Source: Candidatus Kapaibacterium sp.
Lineage (GTDB): Bacteria; Bacteroidota; Ignavibacteria; Kapaibacteriales; NICIL-2
DNA: 64,000 bases
Direction of reading: 5' to 3'
NCBI GenBank assembly: GCA_026003475.1
Contig: BPHJ01000001.1
Location: 1,549,189 to 1,613,188, forward strand
Shown: positions 52,906 to 64,000 of the stretch, piece after piece
Numbering within the stretch: position 1 is the stretch's first letter
Layout: each line of letters begins with the position of its first letter
Notes under the pieces: generated by a model
Databases searched by the model: none
Seen by the model: only the letters and a program-made list of their open reading frames with translations
What the model was told of the DNA's origin: nothing
Position numbers and translations under genes: made by a program

Positions 52906-54087
52906 TTAGCGCACAATCACCAGTGGTGTCGAAATTTGGTAGCGCCCGCTCCGTAGGACGCAACGATACATCCCAGGGGCAACACTGATAACACTTGCAT
53001 CGAGCTTTTGCTCTGCACCACTGACAAGACCTTGCCAGAGAGTTCCAACGGTCCGACCAGCCATATCGAGCAGCTCGATCGTTGCTGTTGTTGCACTCGG
53101 CGTTGTCAGCACTAGCGTTACATAGTCACTTGCTGGCTGTGGATCAACACGCAAGCGATACCCTGCTGCATAGGCTTCATCTTCCACCGATGCAGTTGCA
53201 ATCGTCACGACACTCGATTCAACTGTTCCGCAGTTATTGGTCACCACGACCTTGTACTGGCCGGCATCATTTGCCGTGACGTTGGTGATGGTGTAGGTGC
53301 TATTGGTTGCGCCACTAATCGGCTGATTGTCTTTGTACCACTGATACTGCAAGTTATCGCCTTGTGCTTGCACGCTAAGCTGGAACGAACCACCGATCGC
53401 TGCAGTTCCGCCTTGCGGTTGCTGGGTGATGGTCGGAGCAGTGCCAACAGTGACGGTTGCTGGATCGCTATCAATGCTTCCGCAATCGCTGGTAATCTTG
53501 CAGTACACTTGCAGACCATTCATCTGCGCAGTTGCTGTTTGGGAAATGCTCGATGCTGTTGCGCCTGGCACGGGCATTCCACCAGCATACCACTGGTATG
53601 TAACGTTCAACCCACCACTAACCTGCACAGACATTGCAGCGATCTGGCCTTCGCAGACAGTGACATTTTGGGGTTGTTGGGTAATGGTTGGGCCCGGGAT
53701 AACCGTCACTTGAGCCACTGCGGTTGCGGGGGTAACAGTTCCATTTGTCACGCTAACGATCACTGTGTATTGCCCCGCTTCGTTCTGCGTGATGTTGCTG
53801 ATAGTCAGGGTGTTCGTACTCGATCCGCTGTAGGTACTGTTGTCGCTAATAGGCGTGTTGTTGTAGAGCCACTGGAATCCGTACTGTGGGTTGGGATAGT
53901 TCGTCGATGCCTGGACAGTCAACGTAACAGTCTGCCCAACACACACAGTAATATCCTGCGGCGGCTGGTCAATTCGAACGCGATACTCTGTCGCGGACGC
54001 ACGCACACCGAACAAAACAATGCCCACCATACCGAGCACCAATGCTCCAGGCAGCAGGCCACCAACAAACGAAGACAAGCGTTTCAT
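52906..54087 (-). CDS. secreted Ig-domain protein with T9SS C-terminal domain
   Basis: 393 residues from ATG 54087. Signal peptide MKRLSSFVGGLLPGALVLGM. Three tandem Ig-like domains of the FCB type: about 38-130 (QPPQDITVCVGQTVTLTVQA), 131-215 (TITQQPQNVTVCEGQIAAMSV) and 216-300 (TITQQPQGGTAAIGGSFQLSV), each with a YQW or FQW core and AGQY stretch. Then AYAAGYRLRVDPQPASDYVTL opens the T9SS sorting domain, which closes PGMYRCVLRSGRYQISTPLVIVR. The domain order and wording match the last three Ig domains and tail of the giant genes next to it, so it is a minimal paralogue. Probably exported to the surface and anchored. Codons differ from those of the giants' shared module. Confidence 0.88.
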   Translation of the reverse strand: MKRLSSFVGGLLPGALVLGMVGIVLFGVRASATEYRVRIDQPPQDITVCVGQTVTLTVQASTNYPNPQYGFQWLYNNTPISDNSTYSGSSTNTLTISNITQNEAGQYTVIVSVTNGTVTPATAVAQVTVIPGPTITQQPQNVTVCEGQIAAMSVQVSGGLNVTYQWYAGGMPVPGATASSISQTATAQMNGLQVYCKITSDCGSIDSDPATVTVGTAPTITQQPQGGTAAIGGSFQLSVQAQGDNLQYQWYKDNQPISGATNSTYTITNVTANDAGQYKVVVTNNCGTVESSVVTIATASVEDEAYAAGYRLRVDPQPASDYVTLVLTTPSATTATIELLDMAGRTVGTLWQGLVSGAEQKLDASVISVAPGMYRCVLRSGRYQISTPLVIVR

Positions 54088-54103
54088 GATACACCGAAAA
54101 GTA

Positions 54104-54113
54104 GTGGAACATG
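54104..54113 (-). promoter_or_regulatory. conserved leader box CATGTTCCAC
   Basis: CATGTTCCAC on the minus strand, 16 nt before ATG 54087. The identical box sits at the same distance before the giant gene start (59744-59753). A purpose in translation or mRNA control is inferred. Confidence 0.45.
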
Positions 54114-54310
54114 GAGAAAATTGATAGAAAGCTTTCTTTTCGAGATCCTGCACCGATTCCACACCACTTGGAAGCAGTACAACCGACACGTGTCGCAATT
54201 GATTCATGGCTACAGCATCGTGTGTTGATTGAGACATTTGACTGGTGAGCAACACTGAAGCTTGTGAGTACAACCCAACTCATCATAAGCGTGTGTTAGC
54301 TCCTTCATCT

Positions 54311-54582: not shown

Positions 54583-57500
54583 TTACCGCACAATGACGAG
54601 GGGTGTTGACAGGCGATAGTTACCGCTACGAACCACGCACCGATACACGCCCGCCGCTAACGAACTCCAATCACTGCTGAGCCGCACCTGGCCGCCGGTA
54701 ACAATCCCTTCCCACAAGAATTGCACGACGCGACCACTGAGGTCAATGACCTCAACACTCACCCGTGATCCTTGCGGTGCTACGACCACCACATCGCCAC
54801 GTGCATTCACCGGTTGGGGTTCGACGTGGATGGCATAGCCAGCAGCGATTGTCTCATCCTCGACCGACGACAATACCACATCCACCTGGCTCGAGGTCAC
54901 ACTCCCACACTCGTTGCTCACCTCCACTACGTACTGCCCTGCATCACTCGAACTGAAATTCGCTATCGCATATTCCGAACCCGTCGCTCCAGGGATCACC
55001 TGACCATCCTTCTTCCACTGGTACCGAAGACCCTCTCCCTCGGCTACCACACGCAAACGATACACGCCGCCCCGGCTAACCTCTCCTCCCTGCGGCTCCT
55101 CCACGATCCGCGGCGCCGTCTTCACCGTCAACACTGCCTCCCGACTCTCCACCTGACCACAGTCGTTGCTCACCCGACACCGCACGCGCACCCCATTCAT
55201 CGCTGCCGTCACAACCTCCTCCACCGTCATCTGGGTCGCTCCCGGCAACGCCGAACCACCGACATACCACTGATACCGCAAACCGCCTCCACTGGCACTC
55301 ACACTCAATTGCGCCCGCTGCCCCTCGCACACACTCACATCCTGCGGCTCGGCTGTAATCACTGGCGCCTCGTCAACCGACACCTGCGCCTGCGCACTGG
55401 CGACCGCTCCTCCAGGATTGGCCGTCACTTCCACCGTGTACTCCCCTGCATCGCTGCTCCCTGCTCGACTAATCCGCAACACACTCGTACTCGTCCCGCT
55501 GTACACGCCACCATCGCTGAGAGGCTGCCCGTCCTTCAACCAACGATAACTGTACTCCGCGTTCGGTATGTTCGAACTGGCTCGCACACTCAATACCGCC
55601 GGCTGACCCGAACACACTCGAACATCCTGCGGCACCTGGTCAATCGTCACCTGCCCAACGTACAACCCCGCCGTCTGCGTCGTCTGGCTCCCACACAAAC
55701 CCGTCACCACACAGTAGTAATCCTCCCCAATGTCGCTTTGACGTACGTTCCGTATCGTCAACTCACTGGTCGTCGTCCCCGTTATCCGTCCATCATCGCG
55801 CAACGCCACACTCCCACGATACCACTGGTACTGCGGACTGTACCCAGGTATCTGCGCCGACACCGGCTCCACCTCCAACCGCGCCGTCCCTCCGATCGCC
55901 ACCGCCACTCGCTCCGGCTGCCGCGCAATCAACGTCTGCGGCGCTATGTACACCACCGCCTCCTGCGTCACCACCTGCTCAGTCCCACACGTCCCATACA
56001 ACAAACACGTGTACCGACCCGAACTGGCCTCGTCCACGTTCGGGATCACCAAAATCGGATTGGTCGCACCACTAATCGCTCGCCCATCCTTCTGCCACTG
56101 ATACCCCAACACCGTCCCATTGGCGATCACCGACAACGCCGTCTCCTGTCCTCGACACAATATCCGGCTCGACGGCTGCTGCACGATCTCGATCGGCGCA
56201 TTCACCCGTACCGCTATCACCGGACTGGCCAGCGGATCGGCTCCACCCGTCGCCGTCACGTACAACACATAGTCACCCTCGTGCAACGACTGCACCGAGT
56301 TAGAAATCACCAACGTGCCCGATCGCGTCCCACTGTACCCGTTGACTCCCTCCAACAACGGCGATCCATTGCGCAACCACTGGTACGATAGCTGCGCCCC
56401 ATACGTCACCTGCGCATTCCCGCTGATCGTCAGCGTCGTCCCTTGACAACCTACCACCTGCGACGGCGGCGGCGGATTGAACGATATCACCGGAATGATC
56501 TGGTGCGCTCCGTTGTACACCTCACTCCGATTCCGCGTGTTCCCAAAAATGTCGTCCGGCACATCATTGCGCAATCCCATGTTGTACGTCCCGTTCGACG
56601 TCGATCCCAACCCGTACAACCGACTATCCACCTGCGTGAGCGACAAATCCCCACTGCTGACGTTCGCAAACACAATCGGCGCAAACTGACTGTTCTGACT
56701 CCGACCACTGGTCGTCCGCCACGCCGAGAGCTCACTGCCACTGCCTCCCTTCATCACCCCTGTCGTGCCCCAGTACCCTATCACACTCCCCGGCGTGTAC
56801 ACCGTGTTGTAATCAAGCGACGCAAACGCCCCCGTCGCCTGCATGTCCATCGCTGCACTCTGACCACTGGCAGCGTAGAAAATGTTGTTGTTCAAACTCA
56901 TCCCTACCGTGCTCCCATCAACCCGCACCGGCACTCCCATCGTCGCACTCCCATACCCATCCGAGTACACCGTGTTGTGGAACACCTTCGTGTTCGACGT
57001 GTTGGCACACCGTATCCCCCACAGCGCGCCACTGACCCGAATGAAGTTGTTCGCCACCAACGGCGCTCCAGGATTGCTCGACAACCGTGCCTGCAACAAC
57101 AATCCCGGCGCCTGCGTGCTCTGACCTCCTGTCAAGTTGATCCGGTTCTTCTCAAAACGAAAATCTCCAATGTTGTTGGCAATGTTCACACCCGCACTAA
57201 TCCCACTCGAACTACTGCTGATCACGTTCCGACGTATCACCAACCCGTCGGTCACGTTCGAAAAAATCGCACCCGCGTAAAAGTTCGTAAACGTGTTGTC
57301 CACGTACTGATGCCCACCCATGAACGGCGTCGTCGTCCGCCACACGTACAACGACGCACTCCCGTTCTGAAACGTACAGTTCTTCACCACCAACCCCGTG
57401 TGGTAGGCAGAGTTCGAGAGCAACAATATGTCGTTGTACACAAAACTACTCGACGTCCGACCACTGAACACGACTCCGTCGAACGTCACCCCGTCGCAAC

Positions 57501-59727
57501 CGTCACTGTTGCTGTTCCCCATCAACTCCGCACAGACCGCCCAGTTCGAGCCTCCCGTCCCCGTCGCCTGCACCGTTACGTTCTTGAACGTCACGTAGTC
57601 GGCATTGAGCAACCGCACCGTCGGCTCACCTCCGGCAACTCCCGTCTCGTTCAACGCTGCTGTCTGCGTCGTCCCGCCGTTGTGCACAATGATCACCGAC
57701 GCCGCATTCCCGTTCTCCGACTGAAACACAATCGGGCGCGACTGCTGGTTCCCCGGCGGATTGGCGATGAACACATGACCACTGTACGTCCCCGGTCGAA
57801 TGTTGAACGTCACCGCGCCTAATGTGCCACCGTACCGAAGAGCATTTGCAGCAGTTACAACATCAGGAAAGTCGGGATTACTTCCACCAACCGTATATGT
57901 ACCACTCAAACCTGGGGCAAGTTGTGCACTAACGGTATTGTTTGCACTATTCTCATCGGTTTGTCCATTCGGGCAGCACACCGTTGCCGATATCGTCACC
58001 GGCGCGCCAACAGTAAAGTTGGCCGTGCCCAAATTGACCGTTGTGCTTTGATTGTTGCTCAGCGAGCCTGTCCAGTTGATTGGTGTCTGAGCAACGCCAT
58101 TGACTGTCCAGAAAATTTGCGCACTTGTAATCGTCTGGGCACCAAAGTTCCGCATGGTCACACTAATACTCTGCGACCCTGCTGCAAATGGTGCAACTGG
58201 ACTTGCAACGGCAGTCAAACCGAGATCGTAGTCGAGCGGCACAGCGAATTTCCCTACGAACATTGCGGGATAGCCGATGTAATTGTACAGCTGAGGCGCA
58301 CCCGATCCGGAGCCAAACGTCATTGGGTTGCTGTAGTAGTAGCCTGTAATTGCCCCTTCCTTCCGTGAAGGGCTAACACCAATATCGTAGGCATTTTGAG
58401 TACTCGTCCCTGTTGCTGCAAGCCCGCCAAGCGGCTGACCATTTGTTCTCCATACTGCAACCCAGCATTGGTACTGGTACGAGGTGTAGGAAAATGTCGT
58501 AGTGCCAAACGTCCAGTTTACCGTTGAGTATGGGTACGTGTAGCCACCCAGATACACGCTTCCACCGTTGTCAATGCCTACCCCTCGCGCATACTCGTAG
58601 CAGTTTGTCGTACCAAAATTGCGTGCCCACTGAACAACGCCATTGGTATTGAACTTGACGACGAAGCCATCGTAGTAGGAATCACCAGAAGTGATTGTTT
58701 GACTGTTGCCACCATACGCTGTACCGCGGAAGTAACCACCAATGACGACATCACCAGCATTGTTCACAGCTAAATCCTGTGTCCATTCATAGCTACTTCC
58801 CGTAATTCCCCACGTTGCCCAGACGTAGTTGCCGTTTGCATCGAACTTACACAGCCACGTTTCAGGAGTCGAGTAAGGGTAGTAGAGCGAGTAGCTTGTC
58901 GAGCCGAAGTAGCATGGGTAGCTATACGTCATGCCTGCAGCATAGACATTCCCATTCCCATCGACATCAACGCCATAGGTATACTCAGTGCTAGAACCAC
59001 CGATTGCACGTGCCCATTGAAAGACGCCGTTGGTGTTGAACTTTGCGATATAGCCATCCGTCCCTCCGAATGAGGAAAGCGTCGTGTAGGACGACGAGCC
59101 TGCGGAGAAGTAGTACGTGGAGCTGGAAAAGTATCCGGCAATGTAACAATCACCCGTTTGCTTATTCACCGCAAGGTTGTAAAGGATGTCGGTGCTCGGT
59201 CCTGCTTGCCTGGCAGCCCACTGCACGTTTCCGTTTGCATCGTACTTGACGATGAAGACATCCGGCGTTGTTTGGGTAGCAAGCGACCAACTTCCGAAAT
59301 ATGCGGGATTACTGTAGTAGTACCCTGCGACATAGACGTTGCCATTGTTGTCAACGTCAATCCCGTAGCCATACTCTGAGCTTGTGCCGCCGCCACTACG
59401 GACCCACTGGAGATTACCGCTGGCGTCATATTTCGCAACAAACATGTCGTAGTTCGCACCGCCGCCGTACGCGTAGATCGTCGTCGTGCCGAACGTCGCG
59501 TAGTAGTAGAAGTAGCCCGTCACGTAAACATTCCCGTTGTTGTCCACGGTGCTGCGGTAGCCATAGACGTAGTAGTCAGTTGAAGTGGATTGGCCGCCAG
59601 CACCACGTGCCCAATTCCAAAGCTGTGCACGTGCATCAAGCGAGATTAGCGCAACCATCACTGCGCACACTGCCAATGCGTGACCAAACCATGCTGCCAC
59701 TGCAGCAAACAGGGAAAAGCGTTTCAT
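54583..59727 (-). CDS. giant surface protein: SBBP propeller, CARDB, beta-helix, six Ig domains, T9SS tail
   Basis: 1714 residues from ATG 59727. Signal peptide MKRFSLFAAVAAWFGHALAV. About 35-530 holds SBBP-type beta-propeller repeats (STVDNNGNVYVTGYFYYYATFG, GIDVDNNGNVYVAGYYYSN, GVDVDGNGNVYAAGMTYSY). A CARDB-like domain is at about 537-630 (LGLTAVASPVAPFAAGSQSI). A right-handed beta-helix follows at about 640-1090, repeating NVIS and NNF style strands. Six Ig-like domains are at about 1095-1640, then the T9SS domain, ending RLSTPLVIVR. Residues about 633-1643 are encoded by the duplicated module. Secreted adhesin or matrix role is inferred. Confidence 0.88.
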   Translation of the reverse strand: MKRFSLFAAVAAWFGHALAVCAVMVALISLDARAQLWNWARGAGGQSTSTDYYVYGYRSTVDNNGNVYVTGYFYYYATFGTTTIYAYGGGANYDMFVAKYDASGNLQWVRSGGGTSSEYGYGIDVDNNGNVYVAGYYYSNPAYFGSWSLATQTTPDVFIVKYDANGNVQWAARQAGPSTDILYNLAVNKQTGDCYIAGYFSSSTYYFSAGSSSYTTLSSFGGTDGYIAKFNTNGVFQWARAIGGSSTEYTYGVDVDGNGNVYAAGMTYSYPCYFGSTSYSLYYPYSTPETWLCKFDANGNYVWATWGITGSSYEWTQDLAVNNAGDVVIGGYFRGTAYGGNSQTITSGDSYYDGFVVKFNTNGVVQWARNFGTTNCYEYARGVGIDNGGSVYLGGYTYPYSTVNWTFGTTTFSYTSYQYQCWVAVWRTNGQPLGGLAATGTSTQNAYDIGVSPSRKEGAITGYYYSNPMTFGSGSGAPQLYNYIGYPAMFVGKFAVPLDYDLGLTAVASPVAPFAAGSQSISVTMRNFGAQTITSAQIFWTVNGVAQTPINWTGSLSNNQSTTVNLGTANFTVGAPVTISATVCCPNGQTDENSANNTVSAQLAPGLSGTYTVGGSNPDFPDVVTAANALRYGGTLGAVTFNIRPGTYSGHVFIANPPGNQQSRPIVFQSENGNAASVIIVHNGGTTQTAALNETGVAGGEPTVRLLNADYVTFKNVTVQATGTGGSNWAVCAELMGNSNSDGCDGVTFDGVVFSGRTSSSFVYNDILLLSNSAYHTGLVVKNCTFQNGSASLYVWRTTTPFMGGHQYVDNTFTNFYAGAIFSNVTDGLVIRRNVISSSSSGISAGVNIANNIGDFRFEKNRINLTGGQSTQAPGLLLQARLSSNPGAPLVANNFIRVSGALWGIRCANTSNTKVFHNTVYSDGYGSATMGVPVRVDGSTVGMSLNNNIFYAASGQSAAMDMQATGAFASLDYNTVYTPGSVIGYWGTTGVMKGGSGSELSAWRTTSGRSQNSQFAPIVFANVSSGDLSLTQVDSRLYGLGSTSNGTYNMGLRNDVPDDIFGNTRNRSEVYNGAHQIIPVISFNPPPPSQVVGCQGTTLTISGNAQVTYGAQLSYQWLRNGSPLLEGVNGYSGTRSGTLVISNSVQSLHEGDYVLYVTATGGADPLASPVIAVRVNAPIEIVQQPSSRILCRGQETALSVIANGTVLGYQWQKDGRAISGATNPILVIPNVDEASSGRYTCLLYGTCGTEQVVTQEAVVYIAPQTLIARQPERVAVAIGGTARLEVEPVSAQIPGYSPQYQWYRGSVALRDDGRITGTTTSELTIRNVRQSDIGEDYYCVVTGLCGSQTTQTAGLYVGQVTIDQVPQDVRVCSGQPAVLSVRASSNIPNAEYSYRWLKDGQPLSDGGVYSGTSTSVLRISRAGSSDAGEYTVEVTANPGGAVASAQAQVSVDEAPVITAEPQDVSVCEGQRAQLSVSASGGGLRYQWYVGGSALPGATQMTVEEVVTAAMNGVRVRCRVSNDCGQVESREAVLTVKTAPRIVEEPQGGEVSRGGVYRLRVVAEGEGLRYQWKKDGQVIPGATGSEYAIANFSSSDAGQYVVEVSNECGSVTSSQVDVVLSSVEDETIAAGYAIHVEPQPVNARGDVVVVAPQGSRVSVEVIDLSGRVVQFLWEGIVTGGQVRLSSDWSSLAAGVYRCVVRSGNYRLSTPLVIVR
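54798..57831 (-). repeat. 3,034-bp duplicated domain cassette, copy 1
   Basis: Matches 60305-63338 at a constant offset of 5,507 nt, so with no net indel. By eye I count about 12 substitutions (about 99.6 percent identity), three of them amino-acid changing. A stretch of about 1.1 kb (56472-57574) appears identical. Covers the beta-helix and all six Ig domains. Identity stops abruptly at both ends. Confidence 0.9.
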
Positions 59728-59743
59728 GGTAGAACCAACAATT

Positions 59744-59753
59744 GTGGAACATG
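59744..59753 (-). promoter_or_regulatory. conserved leader box CATGTTCCAC
   Basis: Identical to the box at 54104-54113 and at the same distance (16 nt) before ATG 59727. The rest of the two leaders is unrelated in sequence although their lengths agree to within one nt. Confidence 0.45.
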
Positions 59754-59949
59754 ATGATATGGGGAAACAGGCATTGACGGTCTCAGGAACGGGCGAATCT
59801 GCCCCTTGGTAAGGCACAGAAAGGCAAATGCAGGCTTGTGTTGTGTCCATGGTTCCTCACACGCTCTGACGATCCAACATTAGCATCCCTTCCTGGCAAC
59901 TACACGCCCTTCGCCACCGATGAGCAGCATGCCAGAGGGTGCTCTGACC

Positions 59950-59980
59950 CAAAAATAACAAAAATTTCTGTTCGAACAAA
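59950..59980 (-). promoter_or_regulatory. Bacteroidota-type promoter for the giant gene
   Basis: Minus strand: TTTG (59977-59980), a 19-nt spacer, TATTTTTG (59950-59957). Both boxes match the TTTG / TAnnTTTG consensus fully. An AT-rich tract lies just upstream, as at the 54311-54342 promoter. Confidence 0.7.
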
Positions 59981-59995
59981 AATTTTTTATCCTTT

Positions 59996-60035
59996 GCAAA
60001 AACAGCGCGGCAGGAAGCACATTGCTTCCCGCCGC
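59996..60035 (-). terminator. Rho-independent terminator of the second giant gene
   Basis: On the minus strand a hairpin with GCGGC and GGAAGC arms (60007-60035) is followed by five T (59998-60002). It lies about 55 nt after the stop at 60090. Confidence 0.75.
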
Positions 60036-60089
60036 ACCGTGCGTGTAAGGAACTCTCCTCTGTAAGAAACGCTTCGCTATGTGAGATGT

Positions 60090-63000
60090 CTATCGCACAA
60101 TGAGCATTGGCACTGAAAGATGGAACGTACCAGAGCGGAGCACACAGCGATATACACCGGACGCAAGCATACTCACATCGGTTTCCACTTGAAATTGCGC
60201 TTGGCCGCTTTTGCCCTGCCACACTGTAGCAACATGGCGCCCGTTGATGTCAACGATATCGAGACGCACGTCCACTCCAAGCGGTGCCGTCACAACCACC
60301 GTTGCACGTGCATTCACCGGTTGGGGTTCGACGTGGATGGCATAGCCAGCAGCGATTGTCTCATCCTCGACCGACGACAATACCACCTCCACCTGGCTCG
60401 AGGTCACACTCCCACACTCGTTGCTCACCTCCACTACGTACTGCCCTGCATCACTCGAACTGAAATTCGCTATCGCATATTCCGAACCCGTCGCTCCAGG
60501 GATCACCTGACCATCCTTCTTCCACTGGTACCGAAGACCCTCTCCCTCGGCTACCACACGCAAACGATACACGCCGCCCCGGCTAACCTCTCCTCCCTGC
60601 GGCTCCTCCACGATCCGCGGCGCCGTCTTCACCGTCAACACTGCCTCCCGACTCTCCACCTGACCACAGTCGTTGCTCACCCGACACCGCACGCGTACCC
60701 CATTCATCGCTGCCGTCACAACCTCCTCCACCGTCATCTGGGTCGCTCCCGGCAACGCCGAACCACCGACATACCACTGATACCGCAAACCGCCCCCACT
60801 GGCACTCACACTCAATTGCGCCCGCTGCCCCTCGCACACACTCACATCCTGCGGCTCGGCTGTAATCACTGGCGCTTCGTCAACCGACACCTGCGCCTGC
60901 GCACTGGCGACCGCTCCTCCAGGATTGGCCGTCACTTCCACCGTGTACTCCCCTGCATCGCTGCTCCCTGCTCGACTAATCCGCAACACACTCGTACTCG
61001 TCCCGCTGTACACGCCACCATCGCTGAGAGGCTGCCCGTCCTTCAACCAACGATAACTGTACTCCGCGTTCGGTATGTTCGAACTGGCTCGCACACTCAA
61101 TACCGCCGGCTGACCCGAACACACTCGAACATCCTGCGGCACCTGATCAATACTCACCTGCCCAACGTACAACCCCGCCGTCTGCGTCGTCTGGCTCCCA
61201 CACAAACCCGTCACCACACAGTAGTAATCCTCCCCAATGTCGCTCTGCCGTACGTTCCGTATCGTCAACTCACTGGTCGTCGTCCCCGTAATCCGTCCAT
61301 CATCGCGCAACGCCACACTCCCACGATACCACTGGTACTGCGGACTGTACCCAGGTATCTGCGCCGACACCGGCTCCACCTCCAACCGCGCCGTCCCTCC
61401 GATCGCCACCGCCACTCGCTCCGGCTGCCGCGCAATCAACGTCTGCGGCGCTATGTACACCACCGCCTCCTGCGTCACCACCTGCTCAGTCCCACACGTC
61501 CCATACAACAAACACGTGTACCGACCCGAACTGGCCTCGTCCACGTTCGGGATCACCAAAATCGGATTGGTCGCACCACTAATCGCTCGCCCATCCTTCT
61601 GCCACTGATACCCCAACACCGTCCCATTGGCGATCACCGACAACGCCGTCTCCTGTCCTCGACACAATATCCGGCTCGACGGCTGCTGCACGATCTCGAT
61701 CGGCGCATTCACCCGTACCGCTATCACCGGACTGGCCAGCGGATCGGCTCCACCCGTCGCCGTCACGTACAACACATAGTCACCCTCGTGCAACGACTGC
61801 ACCGAGTTAGAAATCACCAACGTGCCCGATCGCGTCCCACTGTACCCGTTGACTCCCTCCAACAACGGCGATCCATTGCGCAACCACTGGTACGATAGCT
61901 GCGCCCCATACGTCACCTGCGCATTCCCGCTGATCGTCAGCGTCGTCCCTTGACAACCTACCACCTGCGACGGCGGCTGCGGATTGAACGATATCACCGG
62001 AATGATCTGGTGCGCTCCGTTGTACACCTCACTCCGATTCCGCGTGTTCCCAAAAATGTCGTCCGGCACATCATTGCGCAATCCCATGTTGTACGTCCCG
62101 TTCGACGTCGATCCCAACCCGTACAACCGACTATCCACCTGCGTGAGCGACAAATCCCCACTGCTGACGTTCGCAAACACAATCGGCGCAAACTGACTGT
62201 TCTGACTCCGACCACTGGTCGTCCGCCACGCCGAGAGCTCACTGCCACTGCCTCCCTTCATCACCCCTGTCGTGCCCCAGTACCCTATCACACTCCCCGG
62301 CGTGTACACCGTGTTGTAATCAAGCGACGCAAACGCCCCCGTCGCCTGCATGTCCATCGCTGCACTCTGACCACTGGCAGCGTAGAAAATGTTGTTGTTC
62401 AAACTCATCCCTACCGTGCTCCCATCAACCCGCACCGGCACTCCCATCGTCGCACTCCCATACCCATCCGAGTACACCGTGTTGTGGAACACCTTCGTGT
62501 TCGACGTGTTGGCACACCGTATCCCCCACAGCGCGCCACTGACCCGAATGAAGTTGTTCGCCACCAACGGCGCTCCAGGATTGCTCGACAACCGTGCCTG
62601 CAACAACAATCCCGGCGCCTGCGTGCTCTGACCTCCTGTCAAGTTGATCCGGTTCTTCTCAAAACGAAAATCTCCAATGTTGTTGGCAATGTTCACACCC
62701 GCACTAATCCCACTCGAACTACTGCTGATCACGTTCCGACGTATCACCAACCCGTCGGTCACGTTCGAAAAAATCGCACCCGCGTAAAAGTTCGTAAACG
62801 TGTTGTCCACGTACTGATGCCCACCCATGAACGGCGTCGTCGTCCGCCACACGTACAACGACGCACTCCCGTTCTGAAACGTACAGTTCTTCACCACCAA
62901 CCCCGTGTGGTAGGCAGAGTTCGAGAGCAACAATATGTCGTTGTACACAAAACTACTCGACGTCCGACCACTGAACACGACTCCGTCGAACGTCACCCCG

Positions 63001-64000
63001 TCGCAACCGTCACTGTTGCTGTTCCCCATCAACTCCGCACAGACCGCCCAGTTCGAGCCTCCCGTCCCCGTCGCCTGCACCGTCACGTTCTTGAACGTCA
63101 CGTAGTCGGCATTGAGCAACCGCACCGTCGGCTCACCTCCGGCAACTCCCGTCTCGTTCAACGCTGCTGTCTGCGTCGTCCCGCCGTTGTGCACAATGAT
63201 CACCGACGCCGCATTCCCGTTCTCCGACTGAAACACAATCGGGCGCGACTGCTGGTTCCCCGGCGGATTGGCGATGAACACATGACCACTGTACGTCCCC
63301 GGTCGAATGTTGAACGTCACCGCGCCTAATGTGCCACCTGCTGTAAGTTGATTTGCAGCAGCGACAACAGTCGGGAAATCTGGATTTGTCCCGCCAATCG
63401 TGTATGTCCCGCTCAAGGCTGCACCAAAGAGATACACTTTCGAATAGTCATTCGACGGGACCGGATCGGTCACGCCATTCGGATTCGACGTCCAAGCCTG
63501 CACCTGCAATGCTCCTACTTGAGGGAAGTTGAAAGAGCCAAGATTCACTGTCGTCGTCTGACCAGATGGAAGCGACCCAGTCCACTGCACCGGCGTTTGC
63601 GTCACACCGTTGACCGACCAGTTGACCGTCACACTCGTGATGGTATTGCCACCGTAGTTCTTGATCGTCGCCTGCACGGTGTTATTCCCCGGTGGGAATG
63701 GCGGCGGGGTTGATGTTGTCAGCGACGTAACACCTGCATCGTTATTCGCAATGATGTTGAGCATGAAATCTCGGAAGTCACCGTAGTTGTAGTAGGTCGT
63801 GTAGTTCCCGGCACACGGATGGTTTGCACCACTGTAGTACACGTAGTCAATGTAGTACCAATATCCGAACATGACCCGCATCCGCTTGGGTCCCATTGTC
63901 ACCGAACTTGGTATTGTAAACGAGCCGGAGGTACTTTGGTAAATGTAGTAGTACGATGCCACCTGCTCTCCTGCATCGAAGAAATCACCGTCGTTATTCC
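60090..64000 (-). CDS. second giant surface protein, 5' end outside the window (GEVED, CARDB, beta-helix, six Ig domains, T9SS tail)
   Basis: The frame is open to base 64000, so the start lies outside; 1303 residues are visible. The visible N-terminus reads as a GEVED domain: NNDGDFFDAGEQV, then SGSFTIPSSVTMGPKRMRVMFGYW, a cysteine-containing stretch and YGDFRDFMLNI, where most members have YGEVEDY. A CARDB-like domain follows (NDAGVTSLTTSTPPPFPPGN). Then comes the beta-helix and six Ig domains, encoded by the module shared with 54583-59727. The T9SS tail is of a different subtype, ending FHLSVPMLIVR. An alternative first codon (GTG, 63962) is not the start, since the frame continues upstream. 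Confidence 0.88.
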   Translation of the reverse strand, partial: NNDGDFFDAGEQVASYYYIYQSTSGSFTIPSSVTMGPKRMRVMFGYWYYIDYVYYSGANHPCAGNYTTYYNYGDFRDFMLNIIANNDAGVTSLTTSTPPPFPPGNNTVQATIKNYGGNTITSVTVNWSVNGVTQTPVQWTGSLPSGQTTTVNLGSFNFPQVGALQVQAWTSNPNGVTDPVPSNDYSKVYLFGAALSGTYTIGGTNPDFPTVVAAANQLTAGGTLGAVTFNIRPGTYSGHVFIANPPGNQQSRPIVFQSENGNAASVIIVHNGGTTQTAALNETGVAGGEPTVRLLNADYVTFKNVTVQATGTGGSNWAVCAELMGNSNSDGCDGVTFDGVVFSGRTSSSFVYNDILLLSNSAYHTGLVVKNCTFQNGSASLYVWRTTTPFMGGHQYVDNTFTNFYAGAIFSNVTDGLVIRRNVISSSSSGISAGVNIANNIGDFRFEKNRINLTGGQSTQAPGLLLQARLSSNPGAPLVANNFIRVSGALWGIRCANTSNTKVFHNTVYSDGYGSATMGVPVRVDGSTVGMSLNNNIFYAASGQSAAMDMQATGAFASLDYNTVYTPGSVIGYWGTTGVMKGGSGSELSAWRTTSGRSQNSQFAPIVFANVSSGDLSLTQVDSRLYGLGSTSNGTYNMGLRNDVPDDIFGNTRNRSEVYNGAHQIIPVISFNPQPPSQVVGCQGTTLTISGNAQVTYGAQLSYQWLRNGSPLLEGVNGYSGTRSGTLVISNSVQSLHEGDYVLYVTATGGADPLASPVIAVRVNAPIEIVQQPSSRILCRGQETALSVIANGTVLGYQWQKDGRAISGATNPILVIPNVDEASSGRYTCLLYGTCGTEQVVTQEAVVYIAPQTLIARQPERVAVAIGGTARLEVEPVSAQIPGYSPQYQWYRGSVALRDDGRITGTTTSELTIRNVRQSDIGEDYYCVVTGLCGSQTTQTAGLYVGQVSIDQVPQDVRVCSGQPAVLSVRASSNIPNAEYSYRWLKDGQPLSDGGVYSGTSTSVLRISRAGSSDAGEYTVEVTANPGGAVASAQAQVSVDEAPVITAEPQDVSVCEGQRAQLSVSASGGGLRYQWYVGGSALPGATQMTVEEVVTAAMNGVRVRCRVSNDCGQVESREAVLTVKTAPRIVEEPQGGEVSRGGVYRLRVVAEGEGLRYQWKKDGQVIPGATGSEYAIANFSSSDAGQYVVEVSNECGSVTSSQVEVVLSSVEDETIAAGYAIHVEPQPVNARATVVVTAPLGVDVRLDIVDINGRHVATVWQGKSGQAQFQVETDVSMLASGVYRCVLRSGTFHLSVPMLIVR
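60305..63338 (-). repeat. 3,034-bp duplicated domain cassette, copy 2
   Basis: Partner of 54798-57831. Immediately outside it, the protein encoded on either side diverges: NARATVVVTAPLGV here versus NARGDVVVVAPQGS in copy 1 at the 3' side, and distinct CARDB sequences at the 5' side. Confidence 0.9.

Follow-up and report, generated by a model that had tools for sequence, protein, structure and literature searches.

Organization of the two surface genes

The window, that is, the whole stretch of 64,000 nucleotides analysed here, was taken from the genome of Candidatus Kapaibacterium sp. (G000:C1:1549189-1613188), which is closed and consists of one contig of 2,159,245 bp. Two adjoining genes with the same orientation, named A and B, lie at its high-coordinate end; B is located upstream of A, and a third gene is located downstream (Table 1). 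The copies in this genome (G000) are referred to as A0 and B0, and those in the sister species G005 (Candidatus Kapabacteria bacterium KatS3mg040, BPHK01000001.1), a closed genome and the nearest closed relative in the same genus, as A5 and B5. The third gene is about 50% identical in amino acids to the Ig part shared by A and B and is not homogenised with either of them. A terminator scan found none.

Table 1. Features of the A/B locus in the window
Feature	Position	Strand	Description
Gene A	54583..59850	-	ORF; 1,755 aa; signal region, SBBP beta-propeller head, CARDB, beta-helix, six Ig, predicted T9SS type A tail
Gene B	60090..64000, cut by window end; whole gene L004:1279-5583	-	1,434 aa; GEVED head, CARDB, beta-helix and six Ig as in A, tail
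Third cluster gene	52906..54273	-	455 aa; Ig domains and T9SS tail
Gene A head (SBBP, CARDB, first part of beta-helix domain)	57832..59850	-	Unlike B; orthologous to A heads of relatives
Gene B head, part in window (end of GEVED, CARDB, beta-helix start)	63339..64000	-	B0-B5 91-97% nt over most of head
Homogenised module, gene A copy	54798..57831	-	Ungapped against B copy, 12 mismatches
Homogenised module, gene B copy	60305..63338	-	Ungapped against A copy, 12 mismatches
Ig domains 4-6	54798..55653	-	G000 about 72% nt against G005 and G002; G005-G002 about 90%; A0-B0 99%
Stretch whose G005 counterpart is 100% identical between A5 and B5	55873..57180, approximate	-	About 1.3 kb, alignment codons about 923-1358
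Islet	55639..55741	-	Sites 55645 and 55646 gene-specific: A0 as A5, B0 as B5
Gene A T9SS tail	54583..54797	-	Not homogenised in G000 (A0-B0 dS 1.0); G005 tails 87-97% alike
Gene B T9SS tail	60090..60304	-	Not homogenised in G000

A Pfam search identified SBBP in the head of A and Ig domains in the module; in gene B it identified GEVED (1.7e-13) and, under the Pfam cut-off, CARDB (0.003). The tail of A matched TIGR04183 at residues 1678-1753 with 27.3 bits (cut-off 23), and that of B matched only Por_Secre_tail (4e-5, 24.1 bits), just under the Pfam cut-off of 27; by profile the tail is a predicted T9SS type A C-terminal sorting domain. The beta-helix part gave no match to Pfam. Its predicted fold was settled as a beta-helix by an AlphaFold model of A residues 545-1125 (mean pLDDT 80, poor past about model residue 480), which comprises a beta-sandwich domain followed by a beta-helix. 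By Foldseek, the former resembles CARDB (2kl6, target TM 0.62) and the latter the pectin-lyase-like beta-helices, e.g. AlgE4 (2pyg, target TM 0.62).

A near-identical module between diverged ends

The original prediction had reported a 3,034-bp block repeated at a constant offset of 5,507 with about 12 substitutions counted by eye. The alignment gave exactly 12 substitutions and no gaps, corresponding to 99.6% identity. The edges in G000 are as abrupt as had been described: sliding-window identity drops sharply on both sides, windows of 50 bp being about 44-58% alike at the low-coordinate side, with a fall by way of 72% to less than 40% at the high side. The ends of A and B are diverged around the module, the heads being 27-57% alike in nucleotides, and dS between A0 and B0 is 0.000 in the middle of the module against 1.0 in the tails. 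The unit, described as exactly one beta-helix plus six Ig domains, needs to be redrawn, since both edges of the block fall inside domains. The N edge corresponds to A residue 674, about 30 residues into the beta-helix domain and just past its N-cap helix; the C edge corresponds to A residue 1684, about 7 residues into the T9SS tail model, which starts at residue 1678. As to further copies of the module, no third one was found in the closed G000 genome, where the only match beyond the two copies was one of 36 bp at 89%; the same gene pair was found in the related genome G005.

Comparison with the sister species

G005 carries the same A/B pair in the same order and with orthologous heads. Its two copies are 94% identical over 3,330 bp, including a block of about 1.3 kb without mismatch that is flanked by sequence about 90% alike; the tails are 87-97% alike, and the similarity stops around the stop codon. 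The possibility that a single real copy has been placed twice by the assembler was considered, as near-identical repeats are a classic source of such errors. This is vanishingly improbable, because the copies in G000 can be told apart by 12 differences, two of them at gene-specific sites shared with G005, because G005 is an independent closed genome carrying the pair, and because draft genomes break at exactly this repeat (see below).

A four-way codon comparison of the mid-module gave dS of 0.000 for A0-B0 and 0.009 for A5-B5, whereas all between-species values were 0.30-0.32; two neighbouring orthologues outside the cluster, used as yardstick, gave 0.26-0.27. The site patterns were 132 concerted (species-specific), 0 orthologous (gene-specific) and 0 crossed. 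The heads and CARDB showed the reverse pattern, with A0 and A5 about 75-99% identical in nucleotides. Since dS in the module is low within each genome and normal between the species, and the heads show the opposite, the module was homogenised separately in each species after their split. The dN inside the module is also low, as would be expected from purifying selection on the protein or from a mutation cold spot acting without any copying; such an explanation is next to impossible, being refuted by synonymous sites that are identical within a genome and normally diverged between genomes (dS 0.00 vs 0.30).

Similar reasoning bears on the idea that one recent segmental event duplicated the block or a whole gene, whose ends then diverged fast or were replaced. 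Tandem placement, a shared orientation and 99.6% identity of the copies would all fit. We nevertheless judge a recent duplication very unlikely, because the order and orthologous heads in G005 indicate that both genes with both heads predate the species split, A-type heads extend to another family of the order, and each species has been homogenised separately, so that the heads are older than the identity of the module. The earlier preference for gene conversion over whole-gene duplication is thus backed by the sliding identity, the synonymous divergence and the related genomes.

At the front of the module, dS was 0.087 for B0-B5, 0.284 for A0-A5, 0.298 for A5-B5 and 0.007 for A0-B0. As B0 is much closer to B5 than A0 is to A5, A0 would have taken the B type, with copying in the direction B to A. 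The longest runs of agreement at polymorphic sites were 135 sites in G005 and 111 in G000, against maxima of 50 and 59, respectively, in 10,000 permutations. Judged from the alignment, the graded identity in G005, these runs and the islet listed in Table 1 are marks of several overlapping conversion tracts, the islet being a putative remnant spared by homogenisation.

The extent of homogenisation varies at the C edge: the entire module from N to C, with the tails excluded, is homogenised in G000, and the tails are included in G005. The two heads also evolve at different rates between the sister species; dS is 0.72 for the head of A (CARDB 1.59) and 0.27 for that of B (CARDB 0.19), that of A being the faster. 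The third cluster gene diverges much more strongly between the sister species (saturated dS, dN 0.27) than its neighbours do (dS 0.26-0.27).

The position of the edges is relevant to the proposal of an exchanged domain cassette with precise bounds, and to the related possibility that a dedicated system (a site-specific recombinase, a shufflon or a mobile element) moves the block. The abrupt edges in G000 would be in line with such a system. It is, on the other hand, extremely unlikely, given that the edges lie within domains and in coding sequence that is still homologous, that the C edge is not fixed between species, and that the genome holds two copies only and no silent cassettes, with no inverted copies in the window. 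The position of the edges likewise gives no support to the exchange of a precisely bounded cassette.

Ig domains 4-6

In the beta-helix and Ig domains 1-3, the genomes G000, G005 and G002 are about equidistant, with dS mostly 0.25-0.4. In Ig domains 4-6, G000 differs from G005 and G002 with dS of 0.56-1.41 and dN of 0.19-0.30; G005 and G002 differ from each other with dS of about 0.3 and dN of 0.03-0.07, and dS between A and B of G000 is 0.00-0.05. Most simply, the old Ig4-6 allele of the G000 lineage would have given way to a divergent one, which was then copied into both genes. The divergence pattern itself suggests that the block was transferred between species; locally fast evolution plus conversion is another explanation of the same pattern. 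Among the genomes of the genus, no donor of Ig4-6 nearer than 73% in amino acids was found, and the third cluster gene was rejected as donor, being only about 50% identical in amino acids. Elsewhere, G001 is nearer to G004 in Ig domains 5-6 (76-88%) than in the helix (50-76%). It is possible, though we hold it rather doubtful, that the two-headed system acquires divergent Ig blocks from other species and copies them into both genes. If this were true, the cell would change the outer bodies of two distinct proteins at once.

Distribution in other relatives

A-type heads were found in G001, G011, G020, G027, G038 and G043, which include another family of the order, and a B-type head was also found in G004. 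CARDB and head sequences group by gene: in trees of CARDB, A groups with A, and inside each family B groups with B; in trees of the beta-helix and of the Ig domains, both genes of the window's genus cluster together, by genome or by genus. The pair was seen directly in the two closed genomes, and other relatives were judged by the ends of draft contigs.

In the drafts (those of family f5, plus G006 and G004), the contigs end inside the module and share one assembler-sized overlap. A single exact end overlap of this kind is what a de Bruijn assembler leaves at a collapsed repeat. The exact overlaps were 99 bp in G038, 127 bp in G027, 141 bp in G004, 77 bp in both G011 and G006, and 67 bp in G020; in G038, G033 and G020 a pair of outgoing contigs has 99, 127 or 141 bp in common as well. 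The collapsed part in G020 is about 1.3 kb and runs from the Ig domains to past the stop codon. The genes of G038 lie at the ends of contigs of 84 kb and 125 kb, and therefore do not form the same head-to-tail tandem. Taken from these contig ends and alignments, partial homogenisation of such pairs apparently recurs in two or more families of the order, with differing parts of the body involved. A further warning is that genes of this kind are systematically lost or broken in short-read MAGs.

Probable concerted evolution by gene conversion

The paralogues are closer to each other within a genome than to their orthologues, synonymous sites included; the duplication predates the species split, and the flanks keep the identity of each gene; and the similarity takes the form of a mosaic of tracts, with runs that are significant and edges that differ. 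On this evidence, it is very probable that repeated gene conversion within the genome keeps the bodies of these old paralogues, A and B, alike, a case of concerted evolution. A similar picture would arise if part of the block were duplicated anew time after time.

On this reading, A and B are old paralogues with predicted T9SS-type tails, unlike heads (SBBP propeller vs GEVED) and related bodies. The agent, most simply, would be RecA-type homologous recombination between the direct copies. The transfer would be non-reciprocal, as a reciprocal crossover would delete the intervening 5.5 kb and one head; since one head would be lost in this way, two heads must be worth keeping. The tracts would cover the beta-helix and the Ig stack and, in some species, extend into the tail. 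They would end near the CARDB/beta-helix junction, where A and B are only about 50-60% alike, the divergence of the heads halting recombination upstream. In G000, the front of the module would have been copied from B to A, the direction being read from the sequence. Repeated copying between A and B would thus account for an identical outer body in differently headed proteins, and selection may favour such a body beneath two heads. Whether the identical body is itself selected or is a mere by-product of two similar tandem copies is, in our judgement, evenly balanced. Of the proposed exchange or maintenance of ectodomains under different ends, it is maintenance, in the form of homogenisation, and not exchange, that the G000 sequence shows.

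Comparison with known systems

By analogy, the closest precedent is babA/babB of H. pylori. In babA/babB and homA/homB, the 3' segment is concerted within a strain and the 5' segment is gene-specific, and RecA-dependent intragenomic conversion has been proposed (PMC3960876). Like A and B, these are paralogous outer-surface genes with gene-specific 5' parts and concerted 3' parts; unlike A and B, they belong to unrelated protein families and use another export route. For bab and hom, conversion has been described from strains of a single species and can alter adhesin binding, whereas that of A/B recurs among species and apparently families.

The rgpA/kgp/hagA genes of P. gingivalis encode T9SS proteins sharing adhesin blocks, for which domain rearrangement and gene conversion have been invoked (PMC5266723). 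Like A/B, they are T9SS cargo whose near-identical repeated blocks sit under different heads and disrupt short-read assemblies, but their Adhesin and DUF2436 domains vary combinatorially in order and number, in contrast to the beta-helix and Ig stack of A/B in fixed order. Long-lasting concerted evolution has been described as rare in prokaryotes, with 26 genes (tuf, amoCAB, fla, psbA and others), none of those listed being a T9SS protein (PMC6053082). In these, too, paralogues are closer within a species than to orthologues, and this recurs across an order; however, they encode for the most part enzymes or subunits of complexes and are homogenised over almost the full length, and in A/B only the body beneath unlike heads is involved.

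A literature search on T9SS in Kapabacteria found nothing on conversion of the A/B type. The A/B pair is an unusually clear and widespread case of a known phenomenon. A bacterial surface ectodomain that is concerted under unlike heads was previously known mainly from pathogens such as H. pylori, and the recurrence among species of environmental Kapabacteria, apparently in two families, suggests that the shared body is kept for a reason.

Other Ig-rich regions of the genome

In the other Ig-gene regions of G000 that were examined for near-identical blocks, only tandem Ig arrays were present, with no second pair like A/B. One T9SS-like region (L155:7892-15327, G000:C1:430891-438326) contains about 28 tandem Ig-like units of 267 bp, 88% alike; a second array (L155:2805-4341) contains about 5.8 units of 264 bp, 95% alike. 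One Ig match in the L155 region spans three TGA codons. Another region (L005:7019-16000, G000:C1:1687018-1695999) harbours a giant gene with an open frame of 3,294 aa, which comprises a beta-helix-like part and many Ig domains and is 42% identical in amino acids to the last Ig domains of the module.
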